This document shows, in pieces, positions 13,675-13,701 of a DNA stretch of 33,194 nt (the stretch's first letter is position 1; each line of letters opens with the position of its first letter). Location of the stretch: the NCBI GenBank assembly GCA_020851255.1, contig JADZDA010000277.1, positions 1 to 33,194 of the forward strand, in the 5' to 3' direction. A model generated the notes under the pieces. It did no database searches and was not told the origin of the DNA. It was given only the letters and a program-made list of their open reading frames with translations. Origin of the DNA: Burkholderiales bacterium. GTDB taxonomy: Bacteria; Pseudomonadota; Gammaproteobacteria; Burkholderiales; Casimicrobiaceae. A program made the position numbers and the translations under genes.

Positions 13675-13701
13675 TTAGCACTCTCAGATGGCGAGTGCTA
13701 A
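13675..13701. promoter_or_regulatory. CIRCE element (HrcA operator) upstream of rpoH
   Basis: TTAGCACTC-TCAGATGGC-GAGTGCTAA: exact match to the CIRCE consensus TTAGCACTC-N9-GAGTGCTAA. Confidence 0.95.

Follow-up and report, generated by a model that had tools for sequence, protein, structure and literature searches.

Genes and control elements at the rpoH locus

The window, by which we mean the whole analysed stretch of 33,194 nucleotides, encodes the heat-shock sigma factor sigma32. The protein scores 406.9 bits against the equivalog profile TIGR02392, well above the cut-off of 323.1, which identifies it as a true RpoH. The features of the locus, all on the forward strand, are as follows.

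12614 to 13567, forward: ftsY, signal-recognition-particle receptor, directly 5' of rpoH (TIGR00064, 321.8 bits)
13658 to 13664, forward: sigma-E-type -35 box GGAACTT, 10 nt 5' of CIRCE
13675 to 13701, forward: CIRCE operator, predicted HrcA binding site, a perfect 9-9-9 inverted repeat
13675 to 13680, forward: sigma70-like -35 box TTAGCA, inside the left arm of CIRCE
13682 to 13686, forward: sigma-E-type -10 box TCTCA, in the left arm and spacer of CIRCE, 17 nt after GGAACTT
13696 to 13704, forward: extended -10 box TGC-TAAAAT, reaching 3 nt past the right arm of CIRCE
13751 to 13756, forward: ribosome binding site GAGGAG, by direct reading
13764 to 14624, forward: rpoH, heat-shock sigma factor (sigma32), 286 aa, with Sigma70 regions 1.2, 2 and 4

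The operator reads TTAGCACTC-TCAGATGGC-GAGTGCTAA and matches CIRCE without a mismatch (18/18). When up to three mismatches were allowed, neither the rest of the window nor any of 100 shuffled sequences contained a further copy. This bears out the initial annotation, which had described a perfect CIRCE at this position and placed it 62 nt upstream of the rpoH ATG; the same spacing is obtained here, with the ATG at 13764 following the GAGGAG. Two other readings of the palindrome and its surroundings were rejected. It does not form a hairpin with a U-tract, as a terminator would, and an RNA thermometer or structured leader is not indicated, since Rfam gave no match and the predicted folding of the 5' region is not more stable than that of shuffled sequences (z = +0.91).

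In E. coli, ftsE and ftsX separate ftsY from rpoH, whereas both are absent between the two genes in the window (12614-13763), and no FtsX above the cut-off was found in the 86%-complete assembly. A search between ftsY and rpoH revealed no terminator, and transcripts from ftsY may read through into rpoH. Elsewhere in the window, a dynamin-family GTPase (PF00350) is encoded at 9017-11212 (forward strand), 3' of a gene that by eye resembles mutM. Finally, the reverse strand encodes an NtrX-like response regulator (16643-17932) with a shortened sigma-54 activator domain, which matches the Sigma54_activ_2 type with 107 bits, but the standard Sigma54_activat profile with only 21 bits. Its Walker A motif, read by eye, is GEPGTGHE, and the regulator may work without sigma-54.

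HrcA and its predicted regulon

The assembly to which the window belongs comprises 4.28 Mb in 313 contigs. It contains one intact hrcA, on contig C51, whose product shows the C-terminal domain (PF01628, 213 bits) as well as the DNA-binding domain (PF03444), and whose reading frame is free of stops. The gene is divergent from an ORF that by eye resembles NAD kinase. The initial annotation had named absence of hrcA from the genome as an observation that would speak against HrcA control; the gene is present and intact. With up to three mismatches allowed, the whole assembly has just two CIRCE sites, the one before rpoH and one before groES (L001, 857-883), a core member of the HrcA regulon. Thus, no other gene of the assembly, including hrcA and dnaK, has a near-consensus CIRCE, and judged by such sites the HrcA regulon of this bacterium would consist of groESL and rpoH only.

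The operator is lost together with the repressor

We surveyed 120 genomes spread over the order Burkholderiales, in which rpoH, hrcA and CIRCE were each searched for independently. An intact hrcA is found in 108 of them, 11 have none and one (G083) retains a broken fragment. CIRCE is present at all 107 rpoH loci of the genomes with hrcA, with scores of 14-18 out of 18, but at none of the 12 loci of genomes in which hrcA is missing or broken, where the best scores are 10-13. The same holds genome-wide: there is no CIRCE in the 11 genomes lacking hrcA and none in G083, whereas at least one, and mostly two, are found in all genomes with an intact hrcA (n = 108) except G029. In the latter, neither an RpoH above the cut-off nor a CIRCE was found, although hrcA is intact. 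The hrcA fragment of G083 (contig C49, 23722-24117) contains one internal stop, which we read as repressor decay in progress.

Genomes with and without hrcA are found side by side within one genus (G033 versus G077 and G118), and in two further families G052 and G112 contrast with their family-mates in hrcA and CIRCE. Moreover, four families lack hrcA in every sampled genome, the G083 fragment apart. The losses of hrcA and CIRCE occurred more than once, and the fact that CIRCE is lost together with hrcA is strong evidence that the rpoH CIRCE is maintained by HrcA. Among rpoH loci from named beta-proteobacterial genomes, a CIRCE scoring at least 14/18 lies within 400 bp 5' of rpoH in 77 of 80 cases; of the other three loci, two are from Nitrosospira multiformis genomes and one lies at a contig edge.

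A predicted sigma70-type promoter beneath the operator

When the 107 rpoH sites are aligned on CIRCE, constraint reaches beyond the palindrome. Columns 25-30 read TAAAAT, and the pattern TANNNT is found at this -10 position in 106/107 rpoH sites, compared with 2/36 groES CIRCE sites. Its final T, which lies outside CIRCE, is present in 106 of the rpoH sites but in only 3 of the 36 groES sites. In the window, TAAAAT occupies 13699-13704 and is preceded by the TG of an extended -10 at 13696-13697. Between 13500 and 13900 the combination TTAGCA-N18-TAAAAT is the sole sigma70-like match, with an average of 0.0 in shuffled sequences, in keeping with the initial annotation, which had proposed these two hexamers. 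Roughly one in three relatives has a G at the third base of the -35 box, as TTGGCA does. Transcription from this promoter is predicted to start near 13711.

A putative sigma-E-type promoter overlaps CIRCE

A further conserved block, GGAACTTT, begins 16-17 nt 5' of CIRCE at the 107 rpoH sites, and the first spacer bases of CIRCE at these sites are TCA, which CIRCE itself does not require. Together, the block and the spacer TCA are, on sequence grounds, the -35 and -10 boxes of a sigma-E-type promoter. GGAACTT (at least 6 of 7 positions) is found at 67 of the 107 rpoH sites of the order and at none of the 36 groES sites, whereas 1.6 would be expected from shuffles. The remaining 40 rpoH sites do not reach this threshold, so a sigma-E input is not universal. 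The A of the sigma-E -10 box is present at 57/67 sites with GGAACTT, but at only 4/26 sites without it (P = 4e-10, not corrected for relatedness; the sampled genomes are phylogenetically related, so that such Fisher values overstate independence). Among the 67 relatives that have the -35 box, 53 show a spacer of 16 or 17 nt between GGAACTT and TCnnA; 16 nt is the commonest, and the window has 17. The genome encodes a true RpoE (TIGR02939, 316.8 bits, cut-off 236). As a positive control we looked for GGAACTT before the genome's own rpoE and found none in the stretch read. The start site of the sigma-E promoter is predicted near 13692. The initial annotation mentions no sigma-E-type boxes overlapping CIRCE (region 13651-13715), and so missed a putative promoter that is conserved at most Burkholderiales rpoH loci.

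The arrangement is also found in narrower and wider samples. A site with the rpoH-type -10 is present in 20 of 21 genomes of the same genus, and all 10 loci fetched from these that encode RpoH have an identical layout. Class-wide, 153 of 276 genomes have a CIRCE followed by the rpoH-type T; as these loci were selected for the T, its presence there is no evidence. RpoH adjoins the site in 26 of 30 loci fetched from the 153, and 23 of these lie outside the order. GGAACTT is found at 16 of the 23, in each case at exactly -16. The comparison of hundreds of relatives indicates that the CIRCE before rpoH is a genuine control point of long standing that has been widely retained, and no peculiarity of a single genome.

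In two lineages operator and promoters have come apart. In G033, which has no hrcA, the palindrome has decayed, but GGAACTTT, TCATA and TAAAAT are kept. Nitrosospira multiformis (L028, L039, about 2900-3000) has lost the CIRCE before rpoH but kept hrcA and the groES CIRCE, and despite this loss its rpoH retains GGAACTT-N16-TCTTA. Both cases support two independent functions, and the latter shows that the link between HrcA and rpoH is dispensable.

Relation to known systems

Before groESL, this genome and its order have the same operator as before rpoH, presumably bound by the same HrcA. There, CIRCE follows directly on a TA-rich -10-like block, in the position of a start site, whereas at rpoH the -35 box and most of the -10 box lie within CIRCE itself. 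E. coli has GAACTT-N16-TCTGA upstream of rpoH, which we take to be promoter P3. Compared directly, the E. coli and window sequences have in common a GAACTT-type -35, a spacer of 16-17 nt and a TCnnA -10. E. coli, however, has no CIRCE before rpoH (best score 10/18) and no hrcA, as found in the control of our hrcA search, whereas in the window the sigma-E -10 box sits inside CIRCE and the genome has hrcA. The SigE of Bordetella bronchiseptica was shown to transcribe its rpoH gene (fam) in vitro, in a paper that also names rpoHP3 as sigma-E-dependent (PMC3490749). The primer PFamF for the Bordetella fam promoter had no match in 399 genomes.

A CIRCE before rpoH has been predicted in Geobacter sulfurreducens by Rodionov et al. 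2004 (PMC545781, Table 8). As in the window, the consensus TTAGCACTC-N9-GAGTGCTAA precedes rpoH, where it lies at -51 from the start codon, and there is a groESL site. This organism belongs to a different phylum, however, and unlike the genome studied here it also has a CIRCE before hrcA-grpE-dnaKJ; the sections of the paper that deal with these sites describe no overlap of the rpoH CIRCE with a sigma-E promoter. They cite a previous survey that covered beta, gamma and epsilon genomes (PMC545781). That survey may well have reported beta-proteobacterial rpoH CIRCE sites already. It is likely the 2003 study of beta and gamma genomes by Permina and Gelfand. Among the papers searched, none joins HrcA/CIRCE at rpoH with sigma-E. 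Thus, HrcA/CIRCE at rpoH has been predicted elsewhere, and the overlap of CIRCE with the sigma-E promoter is a new detail.

Proposed mechanism and alternatives

The initial reading, HrcA control of rpoH, is supported by the genome comparison, and we consider it probable that a working CIRCE lies over both a sigma70 and a sigma-E promoter and that HrcA represses rpoH through both. Bound at 13675-13701, HrcA would cover the sigma70 promoter from -35 to -10 and the sigma-E promoter from about -10 to +1, so both should be blocked. In other bacteria, HrcA loses activity in heat by intrinsic thermosensing or by titration of GroEL. By analogy, heat, or GroEL occupied by misfolded protein, would inactivate HrcA here, and groESL and rpoH would be derepressed together; under envelope stress, sigma-E would add to rpoH transcription. 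We infer HrcA binding, repression of both promoters, the positions of the start sites and a GroEL-dependent signal. A broader proposal, which we favour somewhat less firmly, is that P3-like sigma-E promoter, sigma70 promoter and CIRCE form one 50-bp module, present in those Burkholderiales that have hrcA and in many further Gammaproteobacteria, in which HrcA would gate the envelope-stress input into sigma32.

HrcA might instead act through CIRCE on a single sigma70 promoter, as the initial annotation had it, the upstream GGAACTT being coincidental. The near-invariant sigma70 -10 box fits this simpler reading, as do the 40 of 107 relatives without a clear GGAACTT. Coincidence would not, however, account for the enrichment of this motif at a fixed distance (67/107 versus 1.6 expected, and 0/36 at groES), for the co-variation of the sigma-E -10 with it, for its survival of CIRCE loss in Nitrosospira and G033, or for the transcription of rpoH by Bordetella SigE (PMC3490749), and we regard a single promoter as unlikely. 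It is more doubtful still that HrcA binds while the main rpoH start lies elsewhere, for example in read-through from ftsY, so that the operator barely affects the RpoH level. The position of ftsY directly 5' on the same strand and the lack of a detected terminator between the genes would allow for this, but so close a conservation of the operator and the promoter boxes, and the loss of the operator along with hrcA, would be unexpected for an ineffective site. That CIRCE is a functionless relic or a chance palindrome has become very unlikely with the genome comparison, to the point that we give it almost no weight: none would be expected in shuffles, and the element is kept across the order, its absences coinciding with those of hrcA.

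Under the preferred reading, with HrcA acting on both promoters, the gene for sigma32 would itself be subject to HrcA repression across a large group of bacteria. Two heat-shock circuits that are usually described as alternatives would then form one cascade, with HrcA over groESL and rpoH, and RpoH over the rest. If the module functions as proposed, HrcA, reporting the cytoplasmic folding state, would gate sigma32 in a transcriptional AND-NOT logic that is absent in E. coli, and the overlap of CIRCE with the sigma-E promoter would join cytoplasmic and envelope stress at a single 50-bp site. In nature hrcA has been lost repeatedly, the operator disappearing each time and the promoter boxes persisting in at least one instance, which makes this logic directly testable.
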